Below, piece after piece: positions 5,723 through 60,199 of a stretch of 64,000 nucleotides of DNA; the stretch's first letter is position 1, and every line of letters starts with the position of its first letter. The stretch is from the NCBI GenBank assembly GCA_903813345.2, contig CAIIXF020000002.1, forward strand, positions 20,784,455 through 20,848,454, in the 5' to 3' direction. The DNA comes from Owenia fusiformis. Its lineage: Eukaryota; Annelida; Polychaeta; Sabellida; Oweniidae. The position numbers and the translations under genes were made by a program. The notes beneath the pieces are model-generated. The model was not told the DNA's origin, searched no databases, and saw only the letters and a list, made by a program, of their open reading frames with translations.

Positions 5723-5738
5723 GAGCTAAACTTGCACA

Positions 5739-6234
5739 ATGTCGGCTGAAGTCGCGCAAGCTCCAAAGACTGATTTCGCTCAAACTGAGGCACCCGTGTC
5801 TGATTCTAGCCCTCGAGCTACAGAATCTATTTCAAAACCAGTAGTCAGTGAACCTGTTTCGCCACCATCTCAGGAAGACAATCCAATTCAAGGGGAATCT
5901 GATAATATTGATTCTAAAGACAGTGCTAAAGGAGAGCAAGAGGCTTCAAAGCCAAAAGTATTTATCGAAGCCCCTCCTCCTAAGGTAAACCCGTGGAAGA
6001 AGAATGCTCCACCTCCTACAAAGACAATTCCAACGGAGCAAAATAAACCAACATCACAACAAAAAACAAACACTGTGAATGCTCCAAAGCAAAAAACTTC
6101 ACAGAAAAGTGTGCAAAAGCCTTCATCGCAGAAACCTGCTCAAAAGAATGCACAGAAAGTACAAGGGAAACCCTCTCCTAAACAACCTGTGAACGTGAAG
6201 CAAACACAATCTAAACCAGAACCCACCTCATCAG
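5739..6234 (+). CDS. LARP1: LARP1 coding exon 1
   Basis: Codes residues 1-165 plus one base. Rich in Pro, Lys, Gln and Ser, with many KPxxQK-like repeats; carries the conserved [10 protein letters not shown] block. Donor tcag|gtgaga at 6235. An acceptor-like site (tattgacgttag) ends at 5722, so the exon probably starts at 5723 with 16 nt of 5' UTR. The open frame runs on to 6335 as intron read-through. Confidence 0.9.
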
Positions 6235-9200
6235 GTGAGAATCTTTATCTTTATAGTGAGGCATATCTGAATGGCAATCATAATTGGGAGTCCCTATGTT
6301 ATTTTCATGTACTGATAACTCATTTCGTATATTGATCTTCATCCTTCAGTTTTGCAGTATTTCAGTGTATCTGTATAATTAGGTCACTGAAAGATGCAGA
6401 CCATGTATAAAATGAGAAATGTGTATCCAGGGAACTTCTCGTAGATAGGAAGACATTAGAACATGCAGAATGACTTTCAGAAAAATTTGAAAACTAGAAA
6501 ATGTCATTTTTATGTCACCACCACAAGTAATGATATATTGTTATAGTCTCCAACCTTTTTGTAGACTTATAGCAGTTGGCATCTGTAACAAATGGCACAT
6601 GGTGACATTTTGCATGTTAATGCCTTGTTTAAAGTCTGATTCACAACTCTGTGGAGAAGTTTTGAATCTAAAAAATAAGCAATCAAAGGACCACATTGCA
6701 ACAGTAGATGAAAAAATAGAAACATAACATACAAGACCTAACTTTTGTAAATCTCAGATAGTTATGTATAATGTGCAGCTAACCTGCGGCCTTTTGTATA
6801 ATTTAGGGTGTTTTTCGTATACTAGTGATCTCCCCAGTATAAAAGCAAGTTGGTGCAGCACCCACCTGAGATTTTGAAAATAGACTTGCACCCACCTGAA
6901 AACCCACTTGCACCCAGTTGAAAATGAGAACAATCATGAATTTTGAGAAAAAATCCTGTGGAGTTCACTGTATACTGTTGCAATATAGTCCTTTGATTGC
7001 CTATTTAAGATTCAAAGTTCTCAATTGAATTATGAATCAGACTGTAAGTTTATTTTGATTAAAATGACTTGTACTGATAAAGTTTTTGAATATTAAAAAT
7101 ATTAGATTCTCATGGTATTTTAATATTAGACTCTCCTAAGATGTTGCAGCTTGGAAAGGTTGTTCAGGCATATTTGAGATATCTTTATTGTTGTATATTT
7201 ATTATATATGGCATATAATTAGGTGTCATGTATATATATATTTTTAGGAGAGGTTATAGACGTTTGCTCTTATTTAGTTCTATTCATGTCGGGATATAAA
7301 TTTCATTTTAAATCACTTTAACCATTTATAGCATTTAACTGTGTGTTGATGCTATTAGAACACTTGAGAAAAAGGACCATCTGATAAGTTTATAAAATAT
7401 ACTTTTCAAAATTTTTAACGAGAATTTCTGAAATTAACTGTACTGTTTTGTCTACAGGTAGTAATCTTTCCAAAATGATATTCTCTCAAAATAACATCTT
7501 TTGGTAACTGGCCTTGTATTGCGCAATTTGGCCATCTTTTGCATCTTGACCTCTATTATGAAAATTAAAGTAGTTCAGGAGCCAGGAAGGGTTCGACCAA
7601 ACCCTCCCCTTGGCCAAAAATCCTTTCAAAATCATACAATTTTTCACCATTCTTAGCACTTTTTTAAGAGATTTTGGCCATTTTTGGAACATTGGATAAT
7701 TGTCAAAAGTGAACCTCCATGGAATTTTTTAAAAAGTGAACCTCCTGGGAAAGCGGCTACAGGCCTGAAAAGTATACTTCCATAGTTCATACATCGTTGA
7801 TAACAAGTGCATAGTGTTAGCACCAGAATGAAGGAATTAGCATAAAGAATCCCCATGTGACTTTACTGAATGGTGTTCATTTTGTATATCACCAAGTCAT
7901 CCTCAGCTTCACCACCTTGAAGTGTTTCTGAATGAGCATTTGCTTTTGGTTGAAGGGAGGAGATCTAGTATTTACTATAGCACCGGTGTTAAGGAGAGAA
8001 TAATCAATGTTCATTGGTCTAGAGAGACACGCCTCCAGATTCATCTAAATTCAGACAATTGTCAAAAAGTGAGATAGTCATACAATGCTGAACTTAACTT
8101 AACAAATAAGATTCCATAAAAGGAAGGAATAAAATTAGAAACACTAAACCACAGGCTTATAAAATATTGATCACAATGCAAATAAATGTATTGGTTTTAC
8201 AATAAAAGCATGCATCTGTATTGAGTTACTAATATGCATATGTGTGAATAAAAAAGAATCAGGTTAAAGTACCATCTTCCACCATTGAAATAAAACTTTT
8301 CTCAAAGATAGAAAGATGGTTTCATTTATATCTAAAAATTCAAATTTTCATAAATTTTTGAATAAGTTCATGTTTTTCTCATTGATTTAGTTTTTCTGTA
8401 GTATATATGTACATGTTACTGTATTTCACCTTAAAATATGTTCATTCATGGTTTCAGCAGGTATAATATTTTCAGCTTGATATCAGTCAATGTAGTGATA
8501 TGTTATTGGTTTATTGTAATTCATATGCAGCAATTTCCCTTCTAATACCATGCTATCATAAATTACTTCATGAATGGAATAGTCATACTGGTACATGTAT
8601 GATAACCGCAATTGATACAAAATTGATATGTACATGTAGTTCTATGCTAGCAAATCAGACATTTTAAATCATGAGAAACTTAAAGCCCTTGATAAATGTT
8701 ATGTTATACTTCATGTATATTTACTTTTCGTAGATCATTTGAATAGGTGCCCTTTTGTTGTTAAACAATTACTGGATGTGCAAAAAATGGCGAGTTTGAT
8801 TCCAAAATGATTAAAAAAGTTTAACTCTTACTAAATTGGTTGTCTAGATATGGCCAAAATTATTAACATTAATTTAAACGGTAAGTTAAATATAATTTTA
8901 TAAGGGCATGGAATCTATTAATAATATTCAATTAATATTGGTATAGCAGCCCTATTGATTTTCAACATACAACGCGACATACAATATATGCACTTACATA
9001 TGTTTAATGATATCGCAGCTAAGATAGCAGTGAACATTGAACAGTTAAAGGCATGGCTTATTCAGACATATGGTCAAATAAAAAGAAAAAAATTGCCAGT
9101 TCTCTTGGATTGTAAACTGATGTAGACATAACATTAATGCTATTGAATTGATATTATATAGATGCAAGTGATCGGATATAAAAGAGCATCGATTAAAACT

Positions 9201-18200: not shown

Positions 18201-21200
18201 TTAGGTTGTATTATCTTACCGAAAGAAGATTGGCAGCTGAATTTCAAAATGGCCGCCATAAATTATTTTTGATAACTCAAATACCAGTCAAAGGATTTGG
18301 CTCAAAATTTATATTTTGATACCCAGAGACAAAAGAAGAAATTTTCAAGATGGCTACTTATCAAAACATGTTTTGTTCGGCGGGATTTGCTACTCTGTGG
18401 AGTTGCAGTTTTCTCATCAAAAACTCAAAACTGTTTTCAATATTTGTAGGCTTCATTTCAGATGGTAAAAAAGGCAAATGGGTGCCTATGGAAATTGAGC
18501 TGCCCGCAAGGGACCGTCCTGGCCGTAGGGCTAGGAATGACGGCACAGGCTCTCCCCGGGGCCGTAAAGATGCTCGTACACGTAGCGATCGCTACAATCG
18601 CTCAGAGAGGGCTGATCGTGAGATGCAAGAGAAGGAAAGAGGTAAGTGACATCCTGCAATAGTTTTCATAAATAAATCTAGCCGACATTAAATTAATTGT
18701 GCTTGGCTTGTTTGTCATTATCTCTGGATTTTGCCCTTAATTACTTCTTAATGACCTGACTTTGAATCTTTATAATAGGCCCTTGATATGAACATTTCAA
18801 ATAATGATGCTGTTAATCACCATACAGAGTTGATGACAAATGATCAAAGAATATGAAAATATTGAGAAATTGATTAGGGATGCATGAAGTCTAGACAAGT
18901 TTTATTATCATACTAATGCATTGAAAACAATCCTGTTTCCATTGCATAATTTATTTGTCTTCCTTGGCTTTCATAATGAATGAAAGGGATATTGGAGTCA
19001 CTATATATCTATCTATCCTTGACGCCTTGTACAAGTACAGTATAAGGCTGTGACTTGGAGGGTAAAATAGAATCCTTCTAATCTGAATGCCACAAGGACA
19101 AGCCAAATGTGTTCAGATTAGCATTTTAATTTTTTCAATAACATATGTGAATGGGAGATAAAAAAAATTTGGGACCGAGAAAAATTGATCTCATTGCTCA
19201 TTGAGAGGTGTTTGATTTTAGAAAGTTATTTGGATATTCTAAGGTTCCATTGTAATAGTTTAAAGAGTTAACATATGGTGAAGTCTAGCCTATAATCAAG
19301 TGTATGATGTGTCATTTAAGGCTCACTACTTGTATTAAGTTAACCACCTGTTTGTTTCTCAAGGAATAGGGAATATCATACACAAGTTTCAATTAACTGT
19401 ATGTCAAAGTATATTCTATATACATCAATTAAAAGCATTTTCTGGGGGTTGGTATCAGACAGGCTCACAAATCATGTAATTAAACTAGTCTCCTTATTCT
19501 GCATTTAGTGTCTAGAAATTCAATAATATTTTCCTTGGCCATTTGATTGCTCTTTTTCTCAGAATTTCCCCAAGCTGTACCTAGCTATTTGTATTTACAT
19601 TGGGGCTGATAAAGGGGATGGGTACCATTACTGATATTATGTGATATGCTTAAATTCTTCAGATATACTGCAAATGATGTTATCCAATAGATCCTTCTGA
19701 CTGGCTCAGGGTTATGTACTCAATTAGAACCCTGTGTCAGAGTGGATGAGAAAATACACTGATGCAACTACACTGAATAAAATATTCTCATTGAATATAC
19801 AAATTGGAGCATATCTACATTTTGTAGGAAGAAAGGCACAATATGAGTGATATTTATTTATTAACTGAAGCTCTTATATGTTGACTTTTAGGAGATAAAA
19901 TCTTGAAAACGTTGCAATTTTTTCAAAACATCTTTCCTTTCTGCAGGTTCCAATTCCTCCAACTGGCGAGATCATGCAGATGAGGATCAACCAAGCCCTC
20001 GATTTAGAGGGCGTGGTGGTGGATATAGGGGCAGAGGAAGAGGGCGTGGTAGAGGCAGAGGGCGTGGTGCACGGTCATTTGAACACAAAGAGTTCAAACC
20101 TGAAGAAAGTAAGTTAAAACTAATTATCAATATTACCTCATTAAGGAACAGAAAATTCATTTACAAATTTCAGTTAAACAAATATTTAGACACCTCCAGT
20201 TGGTGAAAGCAAGATCTTTCCAGTTGACAAACAGCGTGTAATGGGGCAGAAAAAGAAGCACTTATATCCTGAGATATAACTGAAGTTAAGATATTGGATG
20301 CTTGGAAGTTTCATTCTGTAATTTCCTGAATGAAATTATATTCTGTGTCGAATGTTGTACTGACCCTGAAATTTGTCTATTATATGTTTTGAAGTACCAG
20401 GATTCTTTGAAATGGACCCTGCTTTAGCCAACACCTACGCTGGGGGAACTGTGTTTTTTAACAATGTGCAATATATGAAATCAGAGGACCCCCTTATGAA
20501 GGACTACGTTAGAAAACAAGTGTAAGTTAGCTCGTCTTTACTGGCTTTATTTTTTATTTTTTTACTTTCAATATACACAAGACAAGATACAAGTGATTTG
20601 CTAGGAGCAGTTGTTACAAAAGAAATAGAAATACAAAGATACCAATTCGACACACAAACCCATCCAGTCACATGACATTCATTCATATCATGCATATGAC
20701 ACACCTACATTCACTCATTAAAAAGTTTTTCCAGTCTGAGACCTTTGGCCAGATAGGCTTGAAATCCAAGTTTTCTACATGTTTTGAGATATCAAAGGAT
20801 ATGAATGCGAAAGAATCTAAATATTAGTTCAAAAAATAATTTTAATTTTTCAATGTTTCATTATGATACATGCGCTGACAAATCTGTTCTTTTTTGGCAG
20901 TGAATACTACTTTAGCATAGAGAATCTTCAGCGGGATTTCTTCTTGCGACGTAAAATGGATGTTGACGGTTGGATCCCATTGAGTCTGATTGCAAGCTTC
21001 CACAGGGTACAGGCGCTAACACAGGACGTCAAGGCGATCATAGAGGTAAACAAAATGATCAGTTCCTAAGTTGAACAGATGAAAGTAATTCTCCCAATTA
21101 TATAGTAATGATTAGTCCTACTATTCCCCAGTTCTCAATAAATCAAATTTCTAAAATTTATAATATGATCAATCCCCAGAATTCTACACAATCATAGTTT

Positions 21201-24200
21201 CAAAAATCTGACAAAATGTGGTGTAGAAACAGACAGAATTTACTCACTGAACTTGAGCTCGGTTGTTTTTATGAAGTAAAAGGTTTATTTTCCCATGACA
21301 TGATGATATTGCAAATTAAAAATATGACAAATCCTTGATCATGGCATGCAGATTTGCAAATGATGTTATCCAATAGATCCTTCTGACTGGCTCATGGTTA
21401 TGTACTCAATTAGAACCCTGTGTCAGAGTGGATGAGAAAATGTACTGATGCAATGCTATATATACCTACGCTTGATGATCGATTCATTTGCTTTTTGGTA
21501 TGAAACTCTAGACATTAGTCTTAGTTTTAGATATGCTGAGCAAATCATATGTTGGCAATTCAAAAATTGTAAGCTCCGTCAAACATTTTCTTTTAATGGC
21601 TAGGTTTTGCCCATACTGCTACACATAATGCATAACGACACCCTTTTCCAGATTTTTTTTTTATTTTAATTCGTCAATAAAAAGTGTAAACAAGTATAAA
21701 TTCAGCCTTATAGAAAATTAATGGAGATTATCTACTTCCAGAGTGTCGTGGGCAGTACAGAGGTAGAACTCTCTGAGGATCACATTAAAGTACGAGCCCT
21801 CCATGACCCAACATCATGGCCATTGGATCCAGTTGTTTCCGTGTCACAGCTCCACGCTGATGTGCCAGAATTTGTTCCGGGCCGAGCATATGTGCCACCA
21901 CAGTTGCCAGAAACTGGTATGTGGTGTTGCATGATTGATATGTGGTGGTTCATATCTATATGTATTTGATTTGCAATTTGATTGCTAATTTTACTGTACA
22001 TGTCAACCATGGATGCATGCTTTTCTGCAAATGATGTATCCAATAGATCCTTCTGACTGGCTCAGGGTTATGTACTCAATTAGAACCCTGTGTCGGAGTG
22101 GATGAGAAAATACACTGATGCAAATCTGATTTATATATCCATGTCTCCAATAGAGGAGTTTAGTTACATTTTTAACATAAGTATCTGTGTAACATTTCGA
22201 TGTAGAATATCAATCTTTTTACCATTACTATTAAAAAATTGTGAACTCCAGAAAATAAATAATTCAATAAAATGATTTTAATTACAGAATCCGCCCCAAC
22301 TTCACCTGGAGCGAGACTAGGGGCCCACGATGATGATGAATATGAAGACGATCATTTCGCAGAGTCTGACCCCACAGGGTTATCTGTGGGAGGCCACACC
22401 CCCGGTCTATCCTCCAGTGCCCCTGAGCGACAGGGAGAATGGATGGAAGTGAATAAACGTCGCAAGCCAAAACCTGAAAAAAAGATCCCTTCTCAAGTAA
22501 AAGAGGTGTGAGAGTGTTCTATCGTAGCAATAAGGGAGGTTGTGTGTCACTTGTCAACCCAATGGGTTTTGGTTGCCAAGAATGGGGCATCATGGGATGT
22601 GATACAACCTCCATTGTTGTGTATTTCATCTTACTTACCCTTGCACCCTTTATATCTATTTCTTCACAAAAATTTAAATTATGGGACTCATTCTTTCCCA
22701 ATTAGAAACTATGTAGATGAACCCTTTTGACTTGTAGGTCTAGAACATGACTATTTATTGAGGCCTCAGGTGTGGTGTTTTGATAGTTGAATAATTAACA
22801 TGGTGATGTCGTAGGTTGGTGTGCTTGAAGTAACATTAGATTTTGTTAGGCTACAATTAGGAATTACAAGTTTTTATCTATCAAAATGTTGTCAAAATGA
22901 TTTATATTTGAGCAACACGTTATTCTGCAATGAAATCTATTTAAATAGCTAACAATATGTACTTCAAAATGATTCTGCAATTGAATAAATCTGTGATGAA
23001 TCCTTTACTTAAAAAAGGCATAAACATATCCTTCTAATGGGATTCATGCGTCATGCCCTACCGGAGTCAGTTACATCTGTATTCACAATCACGTTGAAAT
23101 TAGAATGCCTCTTATCAATTTCATAATTCAAAGTTTCGTGGATGATTCCAAGAGGCTTCCACTCCAAGTATTATATTACCTGGACTCATGAAAGGAGTAA
23201 ACAAGAATAAAATATTCAACAGTCAGTTGACGCTGCGAAGTCCGGTCACTAATGTGCTGAATATGTTTTTGCAGAAGGATGAACCTGAGGAACTTGACTT
23301 CATGTTTGATGAAGAAATGGAACCAGGACAATTTGGACGAAAAAATGCATTTACAGATTGGTGAGTCCCTTTGAATATTTAACAGTCCTTACCTATTTTT
23401 AACTTGATAGAAAAAGTCATAGAGAATATGGTCTGTTTTAAAGAATCTTCATGTCTGGAAAAATTAAGACGTACTGTTGCTGATAAAAAAATGTAATTGC
23501 AATTGTAGGAATGATGACGATAGCGATGATGAGATTGATGACCAAGAAATCAATAAAATTCTTATCGTCACCCAGACGCCACCTGCTTACCGAAAACACC
23601 CAGGAGGTGATCGCACAGGAGATTATGTCCCCAGGGCAAAAATAACACAAGAGTTGGCGAAAGAAATTAACGATGGCTTGTATTACTATGAAAGTGACCT
23701 CTGGGAAGAGGTAAGGAATAGGAAATTAAGTTTATTAAAAGCAAGTGTTGAAGATTTTCTTTTTTTCCAATTTTCAACTATGATGCCCTCGAGTGGCGAG
23801 CAGATCAATGGCACTGAGGAGAAAGTTGGATTAAAGGTCCTGCATATTGAAAACCATGGGGAAGATCATTGCAATTTATGCGCAACATTTCCATAAAATT
23901 AATTCAAATATTTAACATATTTAAAAAGGATTGAATTTATACAGGGTGTGTTCCAGTGTTGGTTGTCCATACCTTCACTGGGTCAAACCCCTGTTACAGT
24001 ATATAGTTGATCACTACACCCTAGCAGCTCCCTCTTATAGGGTAGTGGCTCTAGTGATCTGCTTACAAAATTGAACATTTTCTCCAATCCAAAGTCTGAT
24101 GATTTGCATTACGATAAGTTTACAGTGGATATTTGGACATATATATTTGCAGGGATCTCCCCAGCATTAAAGCAAGTGGGCGCAGCACCCACCTGAGATT

Positions 24201-27200
24201 TTGATAAGAGGCTTGCACCCGCCTGAAAATCTATTTGCACCCACTTGATAATTAGAAAAATCATGAAAAATGGACATATTTTGGCCAATTTTAGAGAGAA
24301 AAATCCTGTGAAGACACTGCTTTGAGTGCTTCAGTTTGACAGCAACAACAAAAAATGATTGAGAAATGTTAAGGTTTAGAAAAATCATGGGCAACCAATT
24401 TGTTTCCATGATAAATAATGGGCATTTCTCCACATTTTTTATAGCACCATAGTAATTATTTCTTTTCATCACACTTTTTGTAAGTCCTATATTGTCATCA
24501 TTATCTTGATCTACTGGGCGACACAAATCCGTTAATCTTATTATAAGCACATCTTGATTATCTTGTAGGATGGTTTACAATGGGAAGAAGACAACAAGAC
24601 AGTCCAAGTGATCACCAAGGAACAGTTTGAAAGTATTGTTCCAAACCAGAAACTGCCAGCCCAAACAGTACCCCCTCCCCCTCCACCCATGCATACTGAA
24701 GGTAAGTTATATATTCTAAAGATTCATCCAGTTCCATATGTTATTTAGAGTTTTAGAGCAAAATTAGCTTTACTTATTGAACGACCTGTATATTCTTTAA
24801 GTTGAGTTTAGTTCCGTATATGCAAATGATGTTATCCAATAGATCCTTCTGACTGGCTCAGGGTTATGTACTCAATTAGAACCCTGTTTCAGAGTGGATG
24901 AGAAAATACACTGATGCAAATAATACATCTATAATATTCAATATGTTTCTTAATATAATACAATGATTCAAAAATCATTCAATACTATATTTCATTTCAA
25001 AGAATGAAAATTATTTTTCTCAACATAATGATATCACAAGGTACAGTGCTAAAACAAATCAAATCAAATGTCAATGATGCATTTTTGAACTCCATAGAAA
25101 ATAGGACAAGTAACAAGGAAAGTTTTTGCCTCGATTAAAAGAGGTCTCCACCTGAAGCAATTCTCAGTAAATTTATTCCCCCTTAAAAGCCCCCCCCCCT
25201 TAAAAAGATGTACATGTAGTCTACTAGTTCATTTTTGCATGGACAAAGTTCCATCTATGAATTCTGGGGTATTTCAACCTCTTCCACTCAAAGTGTTTTT
25301 TAAAGGAAAAATCACACCTGCATGATAATATAGACATACATATTCTCCCGTTTCCCACTTCCAGAAATAGCAATACCAGCATCAGGAGCACATCAGGAGA
25401 TCCCTGACCAGGCGACATCGCTTCCCGTTCAGATTAAGGATGTTACTCCCAAAACTCCCCGCACACCTCGCACTCCACGAAAGAACCAACAAGAGGCACC
25501 CAGGTTCTATCCAGTTGTCAAAGACAAAGGACCCGATCCACAGGTAACTGAATGAAATTTCCAGATATTTTATAAAACACAATATGTTTATGTCACCACC
25601 ACAAGTTGTGTCATATTGTTATGGTCTCCCAACTGGCGGCTTTCCATGGTTGTTGTTTGGCGTTAAGTGTTTGCCTTGGGCATTCAGCATCTGTAACAAA
25701 TGGCAGGTGATGACATTTTGTATGTTAATGTCTTGTTGATATGTATTTGGAGGAGAGTAAACAGTTTGCAAATGATGTTATCCAATAGATCCTTCTTACT
25801 GGCGCAGGGTTATGTACTCAATTAGAACTCTGTGTCAGATAGGATGAGAAAAATACACTGATGCAAATAATACATCTACGCTATTCAACTTTTTTTGTCA
25901 CCACACATTGCATTGTAAATCTCTGAACTTTTTTTTTGCGAATGGATGGTGTTTGGTGTCTAACAAATGGCAGATGGTGACATTTTGCTTGTCAATGCCT
26001 TGTCTTATTTTAACAGTTGTCAGATACTGTCGTATCATTCAGTTTGACTGGTTTCTCTTATGATATTATGGCTGTATCAATTATGCAATCAATCTGATTG
26101 GTTGTTTCTGTGACAACGATTCATTGAATCTTATTGTTATTTCAGACTCCCAGGAAACGAAAGACTCGTCATGGCAAGAACCCACCCCAGGAGAGCCATG
26201 TTGGCTGGGTGATGGATAGCAAGGAACACAGGCCTCCAAGGTCAAGAACCACCTCCACAAGCTCACTTGGACAGAGGTAAACAAATAACTTGACATGGGT
26301 GCCATCTTTATTGAAATAAAAGATTGGATTGTGATAACAGCAAGCAAAAAGCGTGGAGTTAATACTCTTATAAAATTCCATAGACATGTAATATAGAATA
26401 GAATATAATATATAGAATAGAGAGATCAAATTTTAAGAGAAATAAAGGATTATAAGTATCCACATGATTTTCCTCATATGTGAATACAAATAATGGACTG
26501 AGTAGCCCAGGACAAAAAGGATGTATTTAGATACTTGATCGCGCCAGAAATACTGTTCATTGAATTCTTGGATTAGTCTTATATTGATCATTTTATGAAC
26601 GAATTAATTTTATATATTGTATATTGCAGTCCATCAGAGAGCACAGTATCCACCAGTTATGGGACTCCACAAACTTTCCCCAACTTCCAACACCCTTCGC
26701 ATGAATTGTTGAAGGAGTCTGGCTTTGTATGGCATGTCTACCACAAATATCACTCTAAATGCTTAAAAGGTAAGCAAGTGATTAGATTCACTTAAACTGA
26801 ATCTATTGAACCTTTAATGAATTGTATGAACTTCAAAACATTGGTTTTATACACAGTAATATGTCACCATCAATCCATCATGGTTTCTGGCAGTCAGCAT
26901 CTGTAACAAATGGTAGGTAGTGACATTTGGTATGTTAATGCCTTGCTCCCATGGTGTAATGAGTCTTTGGAATCACCTAATCATCCCACTGTCCATCCAT
27001 CCATCAACAGTTTTCGTACAAATGAAAACAAGCCAATGAGGAAAGATTTAATAAATCTTGATTGTACTAGATATTCTGGCACAATATGATCAAGGGATCA
27101 ACCAACTGAGGCCTGTAGTAGAATTATGTGTCTAGAATTACATATTACTGAATTTCAGATTTTTCCTAGCTAAAGTGTTGTGTACTAGTTTAAAGGAACA

Positions 27201-29802
27201 TTCCTTGCCAGACTATTTCTCTCCTGATATGGTAGCTACAATCATATATCATACATTTAAAAATGTAGTAATCATTCCCAGTAAGCTGCCATCTTTTCAG
27301 ATTTCTTTCAGGAAGTGATGTCATCGACTCTCACCTGTTATAACCTTGTCTATTACAGTATAGGAAAGAAGTACAAAATCACTTCTTAACAAGAAGCCCT
27401 TATCTTCTGTGTAAAAATATTTTCAGGAGTTGTCAACTTAAAACTAAAGAAGAGATCATCAAAAGGATTTTAATCATAGACCAAATTGAAAAAAATATTC
27501 AGCTAGTTTAGTAATTCTAATAGCTCCTTACCTAATGTTATATGCAAAGTTGAGAGTCGATGACATCACTTCCTGAGTGAAATTTTAAAAGATGGCAGCC
27601 TACTGGAATTGAGCACTACATTTTTAAGTGATCAATATTGACCATTTCAAAACATTTTTCTGTTTTTTGATAAACTTGCAAAGTATGTATATGGTATTTA
27701 GCTACCATATTAGGAGAGAGATGGTCTGGCAAGGAATACCCCTTTAAGTATATGCTCCGAGTAACACTACAGTATAACCTGTCTAATCTGAACACTAAAT
27801 AACTATTTCAGAGCGTAAGAACACTCTCTTTAGATTCTGGCTAAAGTGTTGTGTACTAGTTTAAATATAATCTCATGATAACTCTACAGTTAAGTGTAAC
27901 CTGTCTAATCTAAACAATCTAACTATTTCAGAGCGTAAGAAGCTTGGTGTTGGAGTCTCCCAGGAGATGAACACTCTCTTTAGATTCTGGTCATTCTTCT
28001 TGCGGCAACACTTCAACAAGAAGATGTACCAGGAGTTCAAGACCCTCGCTGTGGAGGATGCCATTGCTGGATATAGGTAAGTCTTGTATTGTCAACTTTC
28101 GATACATTTCTCTGTGATCTCCCTGGCATTAAAGAAATAGGGGCGGCTCCATGTTGAAAAATTGAAAATTATGTGCTACCTTGCTGAAAATCTGTGCACC
28201 ATGTTACAGGGATGAAGTATTGAGCTTTTTTGACCGAAACAAGTACTTATCGATTCTCCAGATAGTTTGAAAGGCTTTCCCTTCAACCTTATTCCATGCA
28301 ACATTTTTAAGATGCTACTATTTATTAATTAGCTAACTGCATCTGTATACTGTACAAATATTTCATGTATTTGTAGGTATGGTGTTGAGTGCCTGTTCAG
28401 GTTCTTCAGCTATGGGTTAGAGAAGAGATTCAGACCAGAACTTTACAAAGATTTCATGGAGGAAACACTACGAGACTATGAATCCGGTACGTCAAATATA
28501 GCTTACACTTTTAGAGTTAGCCTTCATATCCATAGAACGGGCCTCCTAGACTTCCACTAACGCAAATATCAGTTCTGACCTCGCGAACTGCATTGATGGA
28601 AGTCTAGGAGGCCCATAGAAGAAGAGTTTCTGCACTCTTGATGAGAAATACGTAATAAAAATTCAATATTCTGACTTTTACCCTTTTAGATTAGGTCTAA
28701 AAAAATACAGCAACCCAGCGGCTTCTGAACTCTTGCAATATGTTAATAAACAGGTCAATGAGGATTTATAAATATCACTTGATTGTGCCAGATATTCTGT
28801 CACAATATGATCAAGGGATCAACCAACTGAGACCTGATTTATTCTGTTAGTTTCACTTCATAAAGAATTTCAACCAAGTTGTATCCTATCCATATAACGT
28901 TTTTGGCAAGTGCAAGAATTTGCTTTTGGTTGAAATTGATGAAGATTTATAACGATTGTTACATATATGGTTTACATACAACAAATGTGAATTAATTTAC
29001 CCATTTTGACTTGCAGGTCAGTTGTATGGACTTGAGAAGTTCTGGGCATACTTGAAATATTCCCGCAAACATACTGAGGTCGACCCAAGACTCACTGAAT
29101 GCCTGTCGAAGTATAAAAGACTTGAAGATTTCCGCGTTGAGGTAAGAACATGATTAGTTTATATAAAGCTTAAATATGTAGAAGATATCCTAAGATGTTG
29201 AGAGATATGATTTTTATTCATGAATGGATATGATATCTGCAAGGAGGGAGCATATGAAAAGTGCATATGTTCCAACTCAATCCTGTGTGTGAAATGAAAT
29301 ATTTTCAATATGATTTTTATCTATAACTACGAAGTTACTCAGACGTAGCAGATATTGTCATTAGAATTCCACTGAACTAACCATGTTTAAAGTTGTTTCA
29401 GATATTCCCCTCATAATATACCAGTATTGAGTTGCTACCTCCAGATTAAAGATTCAACTATTTGATTGGTTGATGTCATGGTTCCTATGTTAACCTAATC
29501 ATGATTTGTTTCTATTTCAGCCACCAATTGAGGAGGGTGGCATCGTTCATGTGCCATCAATAGCAGGAAAACACCCCCCTCCTGCAGGACCCAAACGCTC
29601 CCGTGGAACCCGCAGCAAAAGCGAATCAGACAAGTCCTTGGTCCCGCAAACTTCAAAATCATCAAAACCAAAAACAGACTCTTCGAAATCAAAAGCTCAT
29701 AAAGACAATGTACCAGCCAAATCTGGAAAATCGGAAACTTCAAAAAGTGAAACTGCACCTTCATTAAGTCAGCATTCCACACCGACGATTCGGGAAAACT
29801 AA
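5739..29802 (+). CDS. LARP1: La-related protein 1 (LARP1), whole coding span, 20 coding exons
   Basis: LARP1 is a cytoplasmic RNA-binding protein that controls translation and stability of 5'TOP mRNAs downstream of mTORC1. Joining 20 exons by GT-AG sites and phase gives 3444 nt, an uninterrupted 1147-residue protein, near the length of human LARP1. Domains in order: low-complexity N-terminus with [10 protein letters not shown] (84-93); WPTLGE segment (223-228); [12 protein letters not shown]-rich box (about 380-405); La motif (about 445-530, with [12 protein letters not shown] and [10 protein letters not shown]); PAM2-like motif PEFVPGRAY (548-556); acidic segment followed by [10 protein letters not shown] and [25 protein letters not shown]15 repeats (about 897-1050); basic Ser/Lys-rich tail. 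The DM15 cap/+1C contacts of human LARP1 (R840, F844, R847, R879, Y883) align with R945, F949, R952, R984 and Y988, all conserved. The start ATG opens the N-terminal exon 17 nt after a candidate splice acceptor (5721-5722), so an upstream non-coding exon is likely. Confidence 0.95.
6511..6628. mobile_element. GTCACCACC-family MITE in LARP1 intron 1
   Basis: Begins tatgtcaccaccacaagt and ends ggtgacattttgcatgttaa tgcc. Other copies or fragments: 25588-25737, 25894-26009, 26861-26946, 35126-35241, 36722-36814, 48984-49107, 52401-52600 and 63301-63436. Confidence 0.6.
6824..6969. mobile_element. AGTGATCTCC-family MITE with 7-bp target duplication
   Basis: Terminal inverted repeats agtgatctcc / ggagttcact, flanked by GTATACT on both sides (6817-6823 and 6970-6976). 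The interior is rich in tgcacccacctgaaaa repeats. Confidence 0.7.
7556..7770. repeat. Dispersed repeat (AAAGTGAACC family)
   Basis: Shares ttcaaaatcatrcaattttt and aaaagtgaacct blocks, ending in gctac/gctatggcctg. Other copies, same orientation: about 37990-38140, 42500-42612 and 52660-52800. Confidence 0.65.
9348..9563. mobile_element. CAGTGATCTCC-family MITE, full copy
   Basis: Perfect 11-bp terminal inverted repeats CAGTGATCTCC / GGAGATCACTG around a 216-bp element with a poly-T run inside. Confidence 0.75.
9575..9752. mobile_element. Tc1/pogo-like MITE (CAGT...AACCTGTCT termini)
   Basis: Ends tacagtaacacttgtg and cacttaagacaggtttaactg-type sequence, inverted relative to each other. Interior repeats of aggtgttcact. 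A relative lies at 13467-13635. Confidence 0.5.
10488..11455. repeat. ~73-bp tandem array split by a 507-bp insertion
   Basis: Unit contains ggtagaaaacatgcattatt and aatgaaatgtagaaacgag. One copy precedes 10574; about five follow 11083. The array is interrupted by the element at 10574-11080. Confidence 0.85.
10574..11080. mobile_element. Non-autonomous DNA element inserted in the 73-bp array
   Basis: Perfect 13-bp terminal inverted repeats gagaggttaagct / agcttaacctctc. No open frame of note inside, so it is non-autonomous. Confidence 0.7.
12649..12743. mobile_element. Short foldback hairpin element
   Basis: The arms agtcttgtatttagacc...cctctctc and gagagggggtaatgg...gtaaatgcaggac pair imperfectly over about 40 bp with a short loop. 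Confidence 0.5.
13467..13635. mobile_element. Tc1/pogo-like MITE
   Basis: Ends tatagtaaaacctgtct and acaagtttcactgta, inverted and TA-bounded. The interior has repeated aggtgttcc. It sits 190 bp upstream of LARP1 exon 2. Confidence 0.55.
13825..13973 (+). CDS. LARP1: LARP1 coding exon 2
   Basis: Begins after ttgtttccag, completes the split codon (g|ca) and codes [10 protein letters not shown]...[10 protein letters not shown]...PAEKEK. Ends in phase 0 with donor aag|gtaagc. The first ~77 nt of the following intron, donor included, are duplicated at 14269-14347. Confidence 0.85.
14051..14268. mobile_element. hAT-like MITE next to LARP1 exon 2
   Basis: Ends caggagtttca and ttgaacccctg. It shares the termini and the tgcctgctgctaat block with the copy at 15203-15374. 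Confidence 0.55.
14935..15110. mobile_element. Palindromic dispersed element, copy 1
   Basis: Contains actgagacttaatagcagcc and ctataggctgtcgcttagtt, which pair as an imperfect hairpin. A second copy is at about 17945-18120; both lie in LARP1 introns. Confidence 0.6.
15203..15374. mobile_element. hAT-like MITE, second copy
   Basis: Perfect 10-bp terminal inverted repeats aggggtttca / tgaaacccct. The interior repeats caactggc/gaaaatcgcctg. Confidence 0.6.
16308..16379. repeat. 24-bp tandem repeat, three copies
   Basis: Three copies of a unit beginning gtgcttaatttgttttcaca, in LARP1 intron 2. Confidence 0.85.
16553..16600 (+). CDS. LARP1: LARP1 coding exon 3 (48-nt small exon)
   Basis: Sixteen codons, [16 protein letters not shown], between tacttgcag and gtaagt, phase 0 at both ends. 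It matches the NWPTPGE segment of vertebrate LARP1. Being a multiple of three it could be skipped without frameshift. Confidence 0.85.
17040..17256 (+). CDS. LARP1: LARP1 coding exon 4
   Basis: Begins after attattttcag; codes [20 protein letters not shown]...TPKKKG, a Pro/Ser/Glu-rich disordered linker. Donor g|gtgagt at 17257, phase 1. Long open frames on the other strand and in another frame here are composition shadows. Confidence 0.88.
17945..18120. mobile_element. Palindromic dispersed element, copy 2
   Basis: Near-identical to 14935-15110 through the hairpin core (actgagacttaatagcagcc to cgcttagttctcatac). Confidence 0.6.
18462..18641 (+). CDS. LARP1: LARP1 coding exon 5 (two possible acceptors)
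   Basis: Codes [20 protein letters not shown] then an Arg-rich stretch ([22 protein letters not shown]). Two in-frame acceptors 12 nt apart are possible: ttgtag at 18449 adds GFIS, and catttcag at 18461 does not. The second has the better pyrimidine tract and is used here. Donor gtaagt at 18642, phase 1. Confidence 0.85.
19669..19767. mobile_element. TGCAAATGATG element, copy 1 (LARP1 intron 5)
   Basis: About 100 bp, running from tgcaaatgatgttatccaat to gatgagaaaatacactgatg. It has an internal hairpin cagggtt...aaccctg. Confidence 0.7.
19947..20108 (+). CDS. LARP1: LARP1 coding exon 6 (RG-rich box)
   Basis: Begins after tttctgcag; codes [20 protein letters not shown] followed by alternating RG/RGR repeats and [15 protein letters not shown]-rich tracts of this kind in LARP1 precede the La motif and bind RNA. 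Donor gtaagt at 20109, phase 1. Confidence 0.9.
20401..20521 (+). CDS. LARP1: LARP1 coding exon 7 (start of La motif)
   Basis: Codes [12 protein letters not shown]...[19 protein letters not shown], leading into the La motif. Tandem acceptors 6 nt apart (gaag at 20394, taccag at 20400) both keep frame. Donor gtaagt at 20522, phase 2. Confidence 0.85.
20901..21045 (+). CDS. LARP1: LARP1 coding exon 8 (La motif core)
   Basis: Begins after ttttttggcag. Codes [20 protein letters not shown] and the following segment with [10 protein letters not shown], nearly identical to vertebrate LARP1; this winged-helix La motif contacts RNA 3' ends. Donor gag|gtaaac, phase 0. Confidence 0.95.
21353..21453. 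mobile_element. TGCAAATGATG element, copy 2 (LARP1 intron 8)
   Basis: Same element, same orientation; differs at ctcatggtta, which breaks one base of the internal stem. Confidence 0.7.
21742..21916 (+). CDS. LARP1: LARP1 coding exon 9 (La motif end and PAM2-like motif)
   Basis: Begins after ctacttccag. Codes the end of the La motif ([18 protein letters not shown]), then WPLDP and [15 protein letters not shown], which aligns with the PAM2 motif by which LARP1 binds the MLLE domain of poly(A)-binding protein. Donor gtatgt at 21917, phase 1. Confidence 0.92.
22026..22124. mobile_element. TGCAAATGATG element, copy 3 (LARP1 intron 9)
   Basis: Same element and orientation with a one-base deletion (gatgtatcc) and tgtcggag. 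Confidence 0.7.
22288..22505 (+). CDS. LARP1: LARP1 coding exon 10
   Basis: Begins after taattacag. Codes [11 protein letters not shown], an acidic stretch ([14 protein letters not shown]) and [17 protein letters not shown], which matches the NWIEVKKRPRPSP block of vertebrates. The donor gag|gtgtga is the weakest of the gene; phase 0. Confidence 0.85.
23275..23360 (+). CDS. LARP1: LARP1 coding exon 11
   Basis: Begins after gtttttgcag. Codes [20 protein letters not shown] and GRKNAFTDW, matching the EELDFLFDEEME segment of vertebrate LARP1. Donor gattg|gtgagt splits the Trp codon, phase 2. Confidence 0.92.
23509..23710 (+). CDS. LARP1: LARP1 coding exon 12
   Basis: Begins after gcaattgtag. 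Codes [37 protein letters not shown] and [20 protein letters not shown], one of the best conserved linker blocks of LARP1. Donor gag|gtaagg; intron read-through stays open to 23896. Confidence 0.94.
24151..24319. mobile_element. CAGTGATCTCC-family MITE, diverged copy
   Basis: Begins gggatctccccagcattaaa and ends aaaatcctgtgaagacactg. A more decayed copy is at 28114-28202. Confidence 0.6.
24569..24701 (+). CDS. LARP1: LARP1 coding exon 13
   Basis: Begins after tatcttgtag. Codes [20 protein letters not shown] (vertebrates have ...ISREQFD), then a poly-Pro run. Donor g|gtaagt at 24702, phase 1. Confidence 0.88.
24821..24921. mobile_element. TGCAAATGATG element, copy 4 (LARP1 intron 13)
   Basis: Same element and orientation. 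It shares a further flank (aataatacatct) with copy 5, so the full unit may be longer than 100 bp. Confidence 0.7.
25365..25543 (+). CDS. LARP1: LARP1 coding exon 14
   Basis: Begins after cccacttccag. Codes [10 protein letters not shown]..., the basic [14 protein letters not shown] repeat and [14 protein letters not shown], matching vertebrate RTPRTPRTP...SRFYPVVKEG. Donor cag|gtaact, phase 0. Confidence 0.92.
25588..25737. mobile_element. GTCACCACC-family MITE in LARP1 intron 14
   Basis: Near full copy: ttatgtcaccaccacaagtt to gcatctgtaacaaatggcag, gtgatgacattttg. Followed at 25894-26009 by a second, shorter copy. Confidence 0.6.
25765..25866. mobile_element. TGCAAATGATG element, copy 5 (LARP1 intron 14)
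   Basis: Same element, more diverged (cttactggcgcagg, agaactctg), between two GTCACCACC-family copies. Confidence 0.7.
26146..26276 (+). CDS. LARP1: LARP1 coding exon 15
   Basis: Begins after gttatttcag. Codes [20 protein letters not shown] and [17 protein letters not shown], matching the [15 protein letters not shown] signature just before the DM15 region. Donor gtaaac at 26277, phase 2. Confidence 0.94.
26630..26769 (+). CDS. LARP1: LARP1 coding exon 16 (DM15 repeat A)
   Basis: Begins after tatattgcag. Codes [20 protein letters not shown] then [13 protein letters not shown] and [13 protein letters not shown], the first DM15 helix-turn-helix repeat. Donor g|gtaagc at 26770, phase 1. Confidence 0.95.
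27194..27743. mobile_element. TTAA-flanked foldback MITE (piggyBac-type target) in LARP1 intron 16
   Basis: 550 bp with long inverted arms (about 27194-27345 and 27550-27743). The outer ends share attccttgccagac and are bounded by TTAA at 27190-27193 and 27744-27747. The arms also share gagagtcgatgacatcactt / agtgatgtcatcgactctc. No transposase frame. Confidence 0.75.
27809..27840 (+). pseudogene. Partial copy of LARP1 exon 17 with its splice acceptor
   Basis: Sequence aactatttcagagcgtaaga is repeated from the true acceptor (27921-27940), then joins acactctctttagattctgg, with 32 nt of the exon deleted between. If used, translation would read [17 protein letters not shown] and stop. Confidence 0.75.
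27932..28076 (+). CDS. LARP1: LARP1 coding exon 17 (DM15 repeat B, cap contacts)
   Basis: Begins after aactatttcag. Codes [34 protein letters not shown] and [10 protein letters not shown]945, F949 and R952 match cap/+1C-binding residues of human LARP1. Donor gtaagt at 28077, phase 2. A broken copy of the acceptor and exon start lies 140 nt upstream (27809-27840). Confidence 0.95.
28377..28486 (+). CDS. LARP1: LARP1 coding exon 18 (DM15, R/Y cap contacts)
   Basis: Begins after atttgtag. Codes [20 protein letters not shown] and [14 protein letters not shown]984 and Y988 match R879 and Y883 of human LARP1; the intervening YY is FF here. Donor gtacgt at 28487, phase 1. Confidence 0.95.
28539..28614. 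repeat. Hairpin with perfect 18-bp arms (LARP1 intron 18)
   Basis: gggcctcctagacttcca (28539-28556) and tggaagtctaggaggccc (28597-28614) separated by 40 bp. Confidence 0.8.
29017..29141 (+). CDS. LARP1: LARP1 coding exon 19 (DM15 repeat C)
   Basis: Begins after gacttgcag. Codes [18 protein letters not shown] and [13 protein letters not shown], the last DM15 repeat. Donor gag|gtaaga, phase 0. Confidence 0.95.
29521..29802 (+). CDS. LARP1: LARP1 coding exon 20 (C-terminal tail, stop)
   Basis: Begins after tctatttcag. Codes [17 protein letters not shown], then a Ser/Lys-rich disordered tail ([26 protein letters not shown]) ending in PTIREN and TAA at 29800-29802. The opening PPxxEEG matches the vertebrate C-terminal exon. 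Confidence 0.94.
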   Translation, partial: PPIEEGGIVHVPSIAGKHPPPAGPKRSRGTRSKSESDKSLVPQTSKSSKPKTDSSKSKAHKDNVPAKSGKSETSKSETAPSLSQHSTPTIREN

Positions 29803-35682: not shown

Positions 35683-38662
35683 CTGGAAGAAGAAACACAC
35701 ATAGTGATAAATATTGCAAAAATTCAAGATGAATGCATAAACGGTTTTCCTGGAATTTTGATGACAAGATGACAATATTCAGTTGATTACTCCGTAGTCA
35801 GTTCAGGATATTGAGATTATCCCTTGTTAGCCCTTGTTCAATGTCATACATTTTCCATTGAGACCTATGGCTCTCAGGCAGATATATCATACTGTTACTG
35901 GCCTCAGGATAATTCCAATATCCTGAACCTCATATAGGATAATCTCTATTATATCAAAAACTTAACCTAAAATCTCACTTTTTGAACAAAACTTAACAAG
36001 CCCAGAAATCATCACCATGACAACATACACACCTGTCTTTCGATCTTTCTCCACACAGTAACAACTGTCATAGAATTCCGTGAAAGTGCCAGAAACTTCA
36101 TACAGGTAGTCGCATAGAGAATGCAGCAATAAGTCATCCATCATCTTCAGGATCACTTCCGGGAAACGGAGAAGACATTTCCCTGAAAGAGAAAGATAAT
36201 GTTAATTAAGCTGTCCCTATATGGGCAAAGGGTGAAATATACTTTGATCGATCTTTGATAGTTATTGAGTCCATCTGCTATGGCTCAGCAGCAGAGTCAA
36301 GGTTACCACTACCGCATGGCCCTGGGTTCATTTCCCATTTACGTTATGTAATTCTGAGTGTTTGACTGAGTGGTCCTCGACTTATAAAATGCTGTAGTGT
36401 GTACTTGTATGTCTGTGCACCAGTGCACACAAAAGAATACAGGGCTCCTCCAAGGAGGGATTTCTGGCTCTGTCTTTGAGTGTAAAATACGGTATATAAT
36501 AATTAGGGATTGCTCGCCAAATATAGCATTTACCAAGATACAATACAATTCACTTCTACATTTTCTTTACCTAGTTTCCACTCCTTAGGATGTTCCAATG
36601 GGAGATCAGTTGTCTTAGCAGCCTCTGCCAGTTGTTCTGGTGTAACATTGGCAGTGCGTGCAATAGCCCTGAAAATGATAAAGTGGTTATATTTTGAAAT
36701 GTAAAACAGAACAAAAGATTGACATGCAAAATGCCACCACCTGCCATTTGTAACAGACACTGACCGCTAAATGCGGAGACAATTACAATATGTCATCACT
36801 TGTGGTGGTGACATAATGAAAAAGGTGAAAGGAAGGTCAATTTGTAAATATATTTCATTGTACAAAAATTCCTGAAAACCAGACAAGGTGGTCATGTTAA
36901 AATGCAAAAATAGAATGAAAACGAGTGGAATAAACAAGGAATAATGTAAATAGACATTTAGTCAACACTTTAAATTGAAATGCAAGAATATCAAATAATT
37001 TATTCAAATTTGAGAGAGAACAGCATATAAAAAGAGAGATTTCTCATATGACTAGGAAAGATACAGCCATCTTTACCCCATGCAAGATACTGCCATCTTT
37101 CATCCTAAAAAGTCACACGTGCAAGATGAGATTTATTTATGACATCACAGGTTTAAAAACATCATCAACATGACAACTGATACACCGTTACTATGTGTAT
37201 CCATGCTCATTCAACAAAATAAGTTGTGACGTCATAACAATCAGACTTTGTTGCCACGCGTAAGCAGGTGTTTTCTACAACATTGTTATGACGTCATAAT
37301 AATTGAAAGATGAAGTTCCATTAATTTGAAGCTATTTTTCACTCTGTTTTATCATAAAAAGGTGAAAATATGGCATAATACAGAGTCATATGAGAAAAAC
37401 TTTCTTATACTCGTACCTGTGCAATATCGTCCATTCTTGACTCGCTTTGATAATGTTTCTTTATCTCGTCTGCGACTCGATAAAGAAGAATTATCAAAGC
37501 TCATCAAGAATGGACGATCTTGCACAGGTACTCATATAAGAACCTCTATATCTCAAGTAATCATTCATTTTTAATTGATGAAACATACCTGATTCTCATA
37601 CAAGCATACATCAGATAGACAGCTGTATTTCCTCTGTCATCCAACATCTGAATTCAAATAACAAATATAATGACATTCTTGTTTTGTTTTATAAAAGCTT
37701 GAAAAAGTTCTAAAGCTAGAAAATAAAAGGTGCTTACCTTCACTTACTTTCATTTACATTGAAAGAATTGATTTACAAAATGGGATTTCAAAATCTTACA
37801 TTGGGATTAAAATTGCACTTGTTGCAAAAGGCAAAATGAGATAACTGAAGCAAAATGAGATAACTGAGTTGTGATTTTCTACCAAATGAAACTTCGTTTC
37901 CTAATACCAAAGAAAAAAGACATGATGTTTCATATATTTTCATTATTATCCCCCTGTCATGTATCCCATTGGATATTGGTACTGAACACGGGTCACATGA
38001 CAAGGGTGCAAGCAATCCACCCCTGGCCAAAATTCTTTTCAAAATCATGCAGTTTTTCACCATTCAGAGTACTTTTCAAGTGATTTTGGGCCAAAGATTT
38101 TGAGAAAAGTGAACCTCACATTGACAAAAGCTGGGCCTGCGTATCCTGTGATTTTACCATATTTGGGCAGATAAAGGACCCTCTTATCGAAAAAGCAACA
38201 TCTCATTGGTGAAGTAGGAAGTAGTAATATAAATAATTTCACTTACTTTATCGAAGGAGAATACATAGTCACTGAGCCTATTATGGGATAGATCTGCATA
38301 TTTGATACAGCCGTATGCCACGTTCACTTTAGCAGCCTCAAACTCTTCAGGTGATAAAATCTGGGAAATAAACATGAAATAGCAATGAAATAAACATGGA
38401 ACAATAGATAGATTTATCATATATGTATAGAGTGGTACAGAATCATGCCCCCTCCTAAAAGTAATATTTACAAAATATTGCAGAGAACTATGAAATCATA
38501 TTTATGATAGTTTAAGCAAACATTTTAATACTTATAGGAACTATATTTATAATTACATTTTCTCGTTCTTTTTCTCTCAATTTTGCCTCAGATCTCTTAA
38601 TGCCTTCGTCCAGTAAATCAACCAATCGGACAGTTTCTCCTGATCTGGTCTTGAATTTCTTT
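35573..38662 (-). CDS. RARS1: Arginyl-tRNA synthetase, cytosolic (RARS1), C-terminal six exons; partial
   Basis: Class I aminoacyl-tRNA synthetase that charges tRNA-Arg; in animals part of the multi-synthetase complex. Six exons joined by GT-AG sites give 211 residues with no break, colinear with the last third of animal RARS1. They cover [20 protein letters not shown] (the KMSKS-equivalent region of ArgRS), [20 protein letters not shown], the DALR-type all-helical anticodon-binding domain ([34 protein letters not shown]), [18 protein letters not shown] and the C-terminus [10 protein letters not shown]. The 5'-most exon found opens inside a codon, so at least one upstream exon exists. The HIGH-type motif and the catalytic N-terminal ~400 residues were not found up to 64 kb. 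The gene is tail-to-tail with LARP1. It is either a normal gene with a very long intron, a locus broken by rearrangement or misassembly, or a partial duplicate. The intact splice sites argue against an old pseudogene. Confidence 0.92.
35801..35928. repeat. Inverted repeat in RARS1 terminal intron
   Basis: gttcaggatattgagattat (35801) pairs with ataattccaatatcctgaac (35909-35928); 22-bp arms with three mismatches. Confidence 0.65.
36033..36182 (-). CDS. RARS1: RARS1 exon (KCLLRFPEV...EKDRKTG)
   Basis: Reverse strand: acceptor tctctttcag, codes [31 protein letters not shown] and [17 protein letters not shown]; donor g|gtgtgt. [15 protein letters not shown] is essentially invariant in animal RARS1. 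Confidence 0.95.
36274..36490 (+). mobile_element. tRNA-derived SINE-like element
   Basis: A-box-like tggctcagcagc at 36281 and B-box-like ggttcatttcc at 36325, 44 nt apart as in a tRNA. A non-tRNA tail follows (gagtgtttgactgagtggtc). It lies antisense in a RARS1 intron. Only one copy was seen in the window. Confidence 0.45.
36571..36668 (-). CDS. RARS1: RARS1 exon ([20 protein letters not shown])
   Basis: Reverse strand: acceptor cattttcag, codes [18 protein letters not shown] then [12 protein letters not shown]; donor g|gtaaag. Matches the RSIARLANI...HEKEWKLG block of vertebrate RARS1. Confidence 0.93.
37404..37540. repeat. 62-bp-arm hairpin in RARS1 intron
   Basis: Arms of 62 nt (37404-37465 and 37479-37540) pair at roughly 88%, with a 13-nt loop. 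They share gtacctgtgcaa and atcgtccattcttga. An 82-residue open frame on the plus strand is a by-product. Confidence 0.8.
37589..37647 (-). CDS. RARS1: RARS1 exon ([20 protein letters not shown])
   Basis: Reverse strand: acceptor gaattcag, 59 nt coding [19 protein letters not shown] plus two bases of Arg, donor gtatgt. First helix of the DALR anticodon-binding domain. A 137-bp hairpin lies about 50 nt further along the intron (37404-37540). Confidence 0.93.
38247..38360 (-). CDS. RARS1: RARS1 exon ([10 protein letters not shown]...FSFDK)
   Basis: Reverse strand: acceptor tttcccag, 38 codons in phase 0, [20 protein letters not shown] and [18 protein letters not shown], donor gtaagt. Near-identical to the vertebrate exon. 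Confidence 0.95.
38557..38662 (-). CDS. RARS1: RARS1 exon (KFKTR region), 5'-most found
   Basis: Reverse strand: acceptor attgcag before 38662, one base completing a codon, then [20 protein letters not shown] and [15 protein letters not shown]. Donor gtaatt at 38556-38551. The conserved KFKTRxGxTVxLxDLLDE block is shared by bacterial and animal ArgRS. Confidence 0.92.
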
Positions 38663-45912: not shown

Positions 45913-46743
45913 CACAGGCTGGTATCGAAATATTTGTCCGCTGTGACGGAGCATGCTATTTTTCATAAAAACACTAAGAATACTTCACGATTTATTTTTT
46001 AACTCATATGTTTCGTTATACCATACAAAATTACTTACTCCATGCAATAGATATATAATTTGCGGGTAACTTTCACTTCTGTTTGAAGTCCAATTACGCT
46101 GGGAAGAAAAGCGATTGAAAATGGCGCCGGAGTATCATACTTCAAAATGTACCATTTCTTGTTTAACTTTCTAATGGCACGATATAGTGACACGATAATA
46201 TTTACACATGGTTTCAGCATAACTATGAAGGTATAAATGAGATGTTGATGTATTTGGTCTTTTTAATTCTTTTATAAAAAATAATGTTTAATTTTTTTGT
46301 CCGCTGTGACGGAGCAGTTGCAAATGTGAACTGTGAAAATGCTCCGTCACAGCGGACAAAAAATATTAATATTATTTTTTATTAAAAAAACTAAAAAGAC
46401 CCAATGCATTAATATCTCATTAATACATTCAGAGTTATGCTTAAAACATATGTTAATATTATCCTGTCACTATATCATGCCATTAAAAAGTTAAAAAAGA
46501 AATGGTACATTTTAGAGTTTGATACTCTGGCGCCGTTTTCAATAGATTTTACTCCTAGCGTTATTGGACTTCAAACAGAAGTGAAGGTTACACGCAAATG
46601 ATATATCCATTGCATGGAGTAAGTAATTATCTTTGATATAACGAAACATATGAGTAAAAAAAAAATCGTGAAGCATTCTTAATGTTTTTATGAAAAATAG
46701 CATGCTCCGTCACAGCGGACAAATCTTTCGATACCAGCCTGTG
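45913..46743. mobile_element. Symmetric 831-bp foldback element
   Basis: Two arms of exactly 404 bp (45913-46316 and 46340-46743) around a 23-bp centre. The motif tttgtccgctgtgacggagc lies inside both outer ends and at both inner ends, so it occurs four times, two per orientation. Outer termini are cacaggctggtatcga / tcgataccagcctgtg. Arms have diverged moderately between the motifs. No coding frame. Confidence 0.85.
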
Positions 46744-47894: not shown

Positions 47895-48802
47895 GATGAA
47901 GCCATTCCTTGCAAAATCTATACCAGAATTCGGGATTTCATGCAGAATTTGGTGCAGAATTTTACTTTTACATGCAGAATTTCTGCGCAGAATTTGCATT
48001 TTTCTCATCCAGAACACAAGTATGTGTGATGTATTAATATTGTTACATCAGGTGTGTGATTGTACTAGATCTAGGCTATTACATAGATGAAGTCATTCCT
48101 TGCAAAATCTATAGAAGAATTCTGGATTTCATGCAGAGTTTGACTTTTACATGCAGAATTTCTGCGCAGAATTTGCATTTTTCTCATCCAGAACACAAGT
48201 ATGTGTGATGTATTAATATTGTTACATCAGGTGTGTGATTGTACTAGATCTAGGCTATTACATAGATGAAGTCATTCCTTGCAAAATCTATAGAAAAATT
48301 CTGGATTTCATGCAGAGTTTGACTTTTACATGCAGAATTTCTGCGCAGAATTTGCATTTTTCTCATCCAGAACACAAGTATGTGTGATGTATTAATATTG
48401 TTACATCAGGTGTGTGATTGTACTAGATCTAGGCTATTACATAGATGAAGTCATTCCTTGCAAAATCTATAGAAGAATTCTGGATTTCATGCAGAGTTTG
48501 ACTTTTACATGCAGAATTTCTGCGCAGAATTTGCATTTTTCTCATCCAGAACACAAGTATGTGTGATGTATTAATATTGTTACATCAGGTGTGTGATTGT
48601 ACTAGATCTAGGCTATTACATAGATGAAGTCATTCCTTGCAAAATCTATAGAAGAATTCTGGATTTCATGCAGAGTTTGACTTTTACATGCAGAATTTCT
48701 GCGCAGAATTTGCATTTTTCTCATCCAGAACACAAGTATGTGTGATGTATTAATATTGTTACATCAGGTGTGTGATTGTACTAGATCTAGGCTATTACAT
48801 AG
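47895..48802. repeat. 179-bp satellite-like tandem array, five copies
   Basis: Units start gatgaagtcattccttgc at 48086, 48265, 48444 and 48623, exactly 179 bp apart and nearly identical. The first unit (47895) is 191 bp and more diverged. Confidence 0.95.
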
Positions 48803-49490
48803 ATAAAGCTAGGGTGCACCAGGTGCCTCCTTGATCTATTAATGCCTAAGGGATTAGCCAAGACAGATCACCGAGGTACAGTTAGAAAGCTGAGGCTCCT
48901 GCCCAGAAACTATCAATAACGTAGCATCTATGTTAACCTGAAAAATCTTGAAAAAGTGACAATATAAATGTCATCCTATAGAACAACATGTTAAATGTCA
49001 CAACTTGCCATTTGTTTCAGATGCTAGACGCCAACCCCAAACACCAACTGCCAAACACCAACCACTGAACACAAACGCTGGACACCACACCAATATGTCA
49101 CCACTAGCCCCATCCCAAAATGGCCAATTTCAATCCCATCTCGATCTTATTATCAAATCATCCTGTGACACCCCTAAACTTTTCCAAATGAGATTTTACG
49201 ACCATCGAAGATTAAAAATGGCAATATCGTCATGGTAACATGTTTGAGCAGATGCAACAGTGTTTGTATCATCCCAATAATCTGTCTAGTCATTTTATCA
49301 CCTCGTAATATAGGCAATTATTCCTTGACTAGAATCAGGAGAGCAGTTGCTCATTTAAGCTTATTAATATCTATTTGTTACCATAGAAACGGTTTCATTT
49401 ATTTTACAAGATGGCATTCTATTATCCTGTCAAAGCTTTATGGGGATAATTTCCAATTTCCTCAGTGAAATAATGTTTATCTCGAATAAT

Positions 49491-60097: not shown

Positions 60098-60199
60098 GTA
60101 AGGTCACATAGCAATATTCTTTAAAATATCAATACTTGAAAATATCAAATGTGGGTCAAGTGATTGATAACAGTCTTGTGATGTGTATTGTTCACAGAT

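Follow-up and report, generated by a model that had tools for sequence, protein, structure and literature searches.

The LARP1 locus and its intronic foldback

The window, a 64,000-nucleotide stretch of Owenia fusiformis DNA with a G+C content of 31–38% (2-kb steps), carries on its + strand a predicted LARP1 gene. Of its coding stretches, 26622–26774 matched LARP1 through residues 16–66 of the translation of 26577–26792 (best E 6e-15), 27934–28074 matched LARP1 chains (best E 3.4e-24) as well as the Pfam family PF21071, LARP1_HEAT (E 4.3e-23), and 28333–28557 matched the part of LARP1 that follows (best E 1.4e-18). On the 1096-residue chain 11hg_LA these three matches cover residues 849–901, 901–947, and 948–986. 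Because they are consecutive, the interval of ∼26.78–27.93 kb is an intron, and a long foldback element lies inside it. The features of the locus are as follows.

26622–26774, + strand: preceding LARP1 coding stretch
27166–27840, + strand: upstream duplication unit, with the inserted element and a shortened copy of the exon
27190–27747: foldback element with both TTAAs, 558 bp
27190–27193, no strand: left copy of the putative TTAA target duplication
27194–27743, no strand: body of the foldback element, exactly 550 bp between the TTAAs, with no long open reading frame (ORF)
27744–27747, no strand: right copy of the putative TTAA target duplication
27812–27840, + strand: defective duplicate of the beginning of the exon, lacking 30 bp (10 codons) relative to 27932–27990
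27837–27990, + strand: downstream duplication unit, containing the empty site and the first part of the intact LARP1 exon
27861–27864, no strand: single TTAA of the empty site, placed by flank alignment
27932–28076, + strand: intact LARP1 exon, limits set by eye from splice-like ag/gt

The initial annotation had described a 550-bp foldback between two TTAAs, and its coordinates proved exact. In a repeat search the arms paired in two blocks of 49 and 83 nt, an outer one (27190–27238 with 27699–27747, 88% complementary) and an inner one (27254–27336 with 27548–27630, 87%), and in the arm alignment ∼53 bp were present in the right arm and absent from the left. Immediately inside the TTAAs, 39 of the 45 outermost base pairs are formed and the arms continue further inward, whereas the inverted similarity ends at the TTAAs themselves, with 25 of 30 bases matching inside and 8 of 30 outside. 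Folded as single-stranded DNA, the element reached −125 kcal/mol, compared with −46.0 (sd 3.9) for 100 shuffled versions, none of which folded as well (z −20). The longest ORFs overlapping it, read from stop to stop among ORFs of at least 30 aa, encode 60 aa on the + strand and 63 aa on the − strand.

Read inward, the tips are AGGAA (left) and AGGGG (right), each directly after TTAA, and three bases differ between them just after AGG. Together with an arm divergence of ∼16% over the BLAST columns, this difference means that the original tips can be given only approximately. The same divergence makes a recent arrival of the element improbable, unless its arms already differed at that time. The longest perfect pairing in the inner arms, 26 bp (27308–27333 with 27551–27576), was weighed as a possible conserved motif and dropped, its length being unsurprising at this arm identity by an estimate rather than a computation.

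Filled and empty copies of the target

Both flanks of the element recur directly downstream. The left flank (27166–27193) is identical to 27837–27864 at 27 of 28 positions, and the right flank (27748–27840) aligns with 27865–27990 at 82 matches and 8 mismatches (82 of 90 aligned positions) with 39 gap columns, 30 of which are a single deletion in the upstream exon copy. Aligned locally, the right flank scored 73, a value that none of 5080 control windows reached; these were drawn from both strands, leaving out starts at 27600–28050, and the best of them scored 26. Over the 26 nt directly after TTAA, 18 positions match, compared with at most 15 in 1016 stretches beside the other TTAAs of the window. 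When the flanks (27100–27193 and 27748–27840) were searched by BLAST against the window at E 0.1, just these two copies were recovered, and besides them one 29-bp stretch at about 61.0 kb (E 0.051).

As the initial annotation had noted, the nearby copy crosses one TTAA with no insert; this TTAA lies 113 bp beyond the right TTAA of the filled site, and the matched ends of the two units overlap by 4 bases at their junction. The flank alignment, which that annotation had proposed as a check, supports its reading of the two units as filled and empty copies derived from a local tandem duplication. What was duplicated is the terminal part of the intron together with the beginning of the exon that follows. 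Translated in the frame of the exon, the shortened upstream copy reads RKNTLFRFW, after which the frame runs into the next unit and ends at a stop after LKCCVLV. The downstream copy continues into the full LARP1 exon, so that the defect lies in the unit that bears the insertion.

Paralogous loci that lack an element, termed RESites (related to empty sites), are an established means of documenting insertions in the account given for PIF/Harbinger-like elements (PMC2213677). The present case resembles the RESites of that account in that a paralogous locus without the element records past movement and target duplication, and differs from them in that the empty paralogue adjoins the filled site through tandem duplication, its TTAA only 113 bp away (PMC2213677).

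Other foldbacks, repeats, and genes of the window

With the element as BLAST query against the window (E values up to 1), the matches were the element, its two arms, a palindrome within it, and three stretches of 15–20 bp (E 0.10–0.36), with no second copy. No transposase was found by Pfam at E 0.01 among 10 window proteins, made up of one exon and 9 out of 41 ORFs of at least 90 aa, the families recovered being just LARP1_HEAT and tRNA-synt_1d; the DDE transposase with THAP and H2CH motifs that an autonomous Kolobok partner would encode was thus not seen in this set. Exact searches of viral_contigs and genome_contigs with a terminal pattern and an inner arm pattern gave 0 matches, as did a third pattern in viral_contigs, results of little weight given that these collections hold viruses and prokaryotes.

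We scanned the 511 TTAAs of the window for inverted pairs 80–3500 bp apart with at least 15 of 20 bases alike, which yielded four pairs, of which just 27190–27747 forms a complete element with TTAA as its limit. At 56809–57245 and 46163–46494 the bases outside the TTAAs still match (30 of 30 and 26 of 30, respectively), so that TTAA is not the boundary, and 27257–27627 is internal to the arms of the 27190–27747 element. A separate BLAST scan for inverted repeats found 4 pairs and added a foldback at 6629–7047; it missed the 46-kb pair and is therefore not exhaustive.

The 6629–7047 foldback (419 bp, arms 82% alike) lies just downstream of an ORF at 5730–6335. It has the tips AGTCTGATTC at both ends, next to TTAA on the left and GTAA on the right, and its ends separate 24 of 30 matching bases inside from 7 of 30 outside. 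It could be a further Kolobok-like MITE with AG tips, one of whose TTAAs has decayed, or else an element with a TAA duplication. Another foldback, 56722–57332, is 611 bp long with 134-nt arms at 95% identity and is not TTAA-bounded; its arms are closer to each other than those of the intronic element, which suggests that it is perhaps the younger of the two. A long imperfect foldback at 46100–46560, likewise not TTAA-bounded, contains a near-perfect central hairpin at ∼46300–46360 (by eye).

Several other repeats were also present. One of ∼100–120 bp occurs in five places at 88–97% identity (24817–24941, 25767–25888, 19664–19770, 22026–22125, and 21352–21472), and dispersed short repeats at 25584–26003 and 26889–26945 have matches on both strands near 2.2–2.9, 6.5, 35–37, 40, and 49 kb. 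A 179-bp unit forms a tandem array of 4.8 copies with 99% matches at 47953–48808. The exon at 27932 is flanked by a 90-bp repeat (27026–27115 and 28748–28836, 83% identity) that is distinct from the tandem duplication. With respect to genes, the + strand carries an uninterrupted 538-aa ORF at 60182–61798 that may encode a cGAS-like nucleotidyltransferase: its residues 98–155 weakly resemble cyclic GMP-AMP synthase (best E 0.00039), and Pfam gave nothing for it at E 0.01. On the − strand an ORF fragment (38187–38495) matches the catalytic domain of arginyl-tRNA synthetase (PF00750, E 2e-08).

Target, superfamily, and history of the element

Taken alone, the flanks put an upper bound of 5 bp on the duplicated target, because TTTAA is what the empty site has in common with each side of the insertion. 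Requiring equal tips leaves two readings. In one the target is TTAA and the tips are AGG, in the other the target is TA and the tips are AAGG; both give identical letters because T-TA-A is palindromic. The earlier claim that the two sites show TTAA duplication directly was therefore too strong, although TTAA remains the most likely unit. We favor TTAA over TA, short of proof, since under the TA reading the flanking T and A would have to be there by chance and the fit to the published rule for Kolobok and T2 elements would be lost.

TTAA target duplication is described as common to Kolobok and piggyBac, and 5′-RR…YY-3′ termini as setting Kolobok apart from piggyBac (PMC9587614); the T2-MITEs of Xenopus, regarded as non-autonomous Kolobok elements, are reported to combine a TTAA target with terminal AGGRR (PMC6004289). 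The tips of the intronic element, TTAAAGGAA and TTAAAGGGG, both conform to TTAA followed by AGGRR, a combination found at 4 of 1022 sites in the window (511 TTAAs, both strands), two of which are the ends of the element. Its termini are 5′-AG…CT-3′ if TTAA was the target, and it shows the 4-bp TTAA duplication expected of Kolobok, which in a single copy TA with AAGG tips would fit as well. It thus shares with the Xenopus T2-MITE family, as characterized in that source, the TTAA target, AGGRR at both ends, and the form of a short inverted-repeat element (PMC6004289). High copy number and similarity to a T2 subfamily also belong to the profile of a T2-MITE, and in the window the element occurs once. 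AGGGG tips are also listed for A5/Tr2, a full-length Xenopus Kolobok (Table 5 of PMC6004289), a likeness that does not imply any closer relation. With the Kolobok elements, KolobokP included, it shares the TTAA duplication and 5′-RR…YY-3′ termini as given in the cited description, whereas the KolobokP arrangement differs, the element being 558 bp long and having no long terminal direct repeats in the repeat search (PMC9587614).

From this evidence, namely the target and some five bases at the ends of one copy, we consider it likely that the foldback is a non-autonomous MITE of the Kolobok superfamily with tips of the T2-MITE type, which entered a TTAA of the LARP1 intron after the tandem duplication. 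An origin in another superfamily is unlikely. It might be a TA-inserting element, such as a Tc1/mariner-like one, with AAGG tips and a chance T-TA-A context, which would produce the same letters at both ends, or a TTAA-inserting element such as Sola3, whose target is TTAA; we know of no Tc1/mariner element that starts with AAGG. Assignment of MITEs by their tips is admittedly imperfect, with 481 of 6012 insect families left unassigned in one survey (PMC5199201), but AGGRR after TTAA at both ends conforms to the T2-MITE rule as published for Xenopus (PMC6004289).

For the Kolobok-type MITE that we prefer, the simplest order of events begins with the tandem duplication of the intron end and the start of the next exon of LARP1. 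The element would then have inserted by cut-and-paste at the TTAA of the upstream copy, now defective in its exon part too, with a Kolobok transposase supplied in trans and the TTAA duplicated at entry, while the unfilled target would have persisted in the downstream copy. The sequence by itself does not distinguish this from the opposite order, in which the element predates the duplication and what looks like a never-filled site is what a later, seamless excision left behind. Excisions are known from the superfamily, having been described for KolobokP solo LTDRs, in that account with footprints (PMC9587614). Here, however, the excision would be one event more and would have had to leave a single TTAA and zero footprint, and we regard this order as quite unlikely. 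Its specific form, in which a Kolobok-type element was duplicated along with the host segment and then left one copy in the seamless manner of piggyBac, appears a shade more doubtful still; if true, it would mean that Kolobok MITEs are able to leave without a footprint.

The target choice had initially been ascribed to a transposase of the piggyBac type, an attribution that was not supported. A MITE moved by piggyBac transposase would account for the duplicated TTAA, with the TA caveat given above, piggyBac being a user of TTAA. However, piggyBac terminal repeats are described as 12–19 bp long and starting with CCYT (PMC5601938), whereas both tips here start with AGG and the arms span 49 and 83 nt, a length difference that is a weak test for a foldback derivative. 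CCYT follows TTAA at four sites in the window (2632, 45513, 58277, and 61829), none of them at the element. The likeness to piggyBac and to its MITEs such as MER85, as these are portrayed in the cited reports, thus lies in the TTAA duplication, with AGG in place of CCYT and an inverted repeat far above 12–19 bp setting the element apart (PMC2268245, PMC5601938). Since the AGGRR and RR…YY tips carry the Kolobok/T2 signature and CCYT is absent, we hold a piggyBac-type origin to be very improbable. Finally, the strong foldback could also stem from a gene for a hairpin RNA or from an inverted duplication that arose in the intron by chance. Either is scarcely credible, as the repeat ends, at the duplicated TTAA, are also where flank homology is interrupted, and Rfam returned nothing at the gathering score in 26500–28500.

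Apart from its paired sites, the element is most likely an ordinary intronic MITE of a known group. The locus preserves, within a short space, a natural insertion and its control side by side, and it cautions that TTAA on its own must not be taken as a mark of piggyBac.
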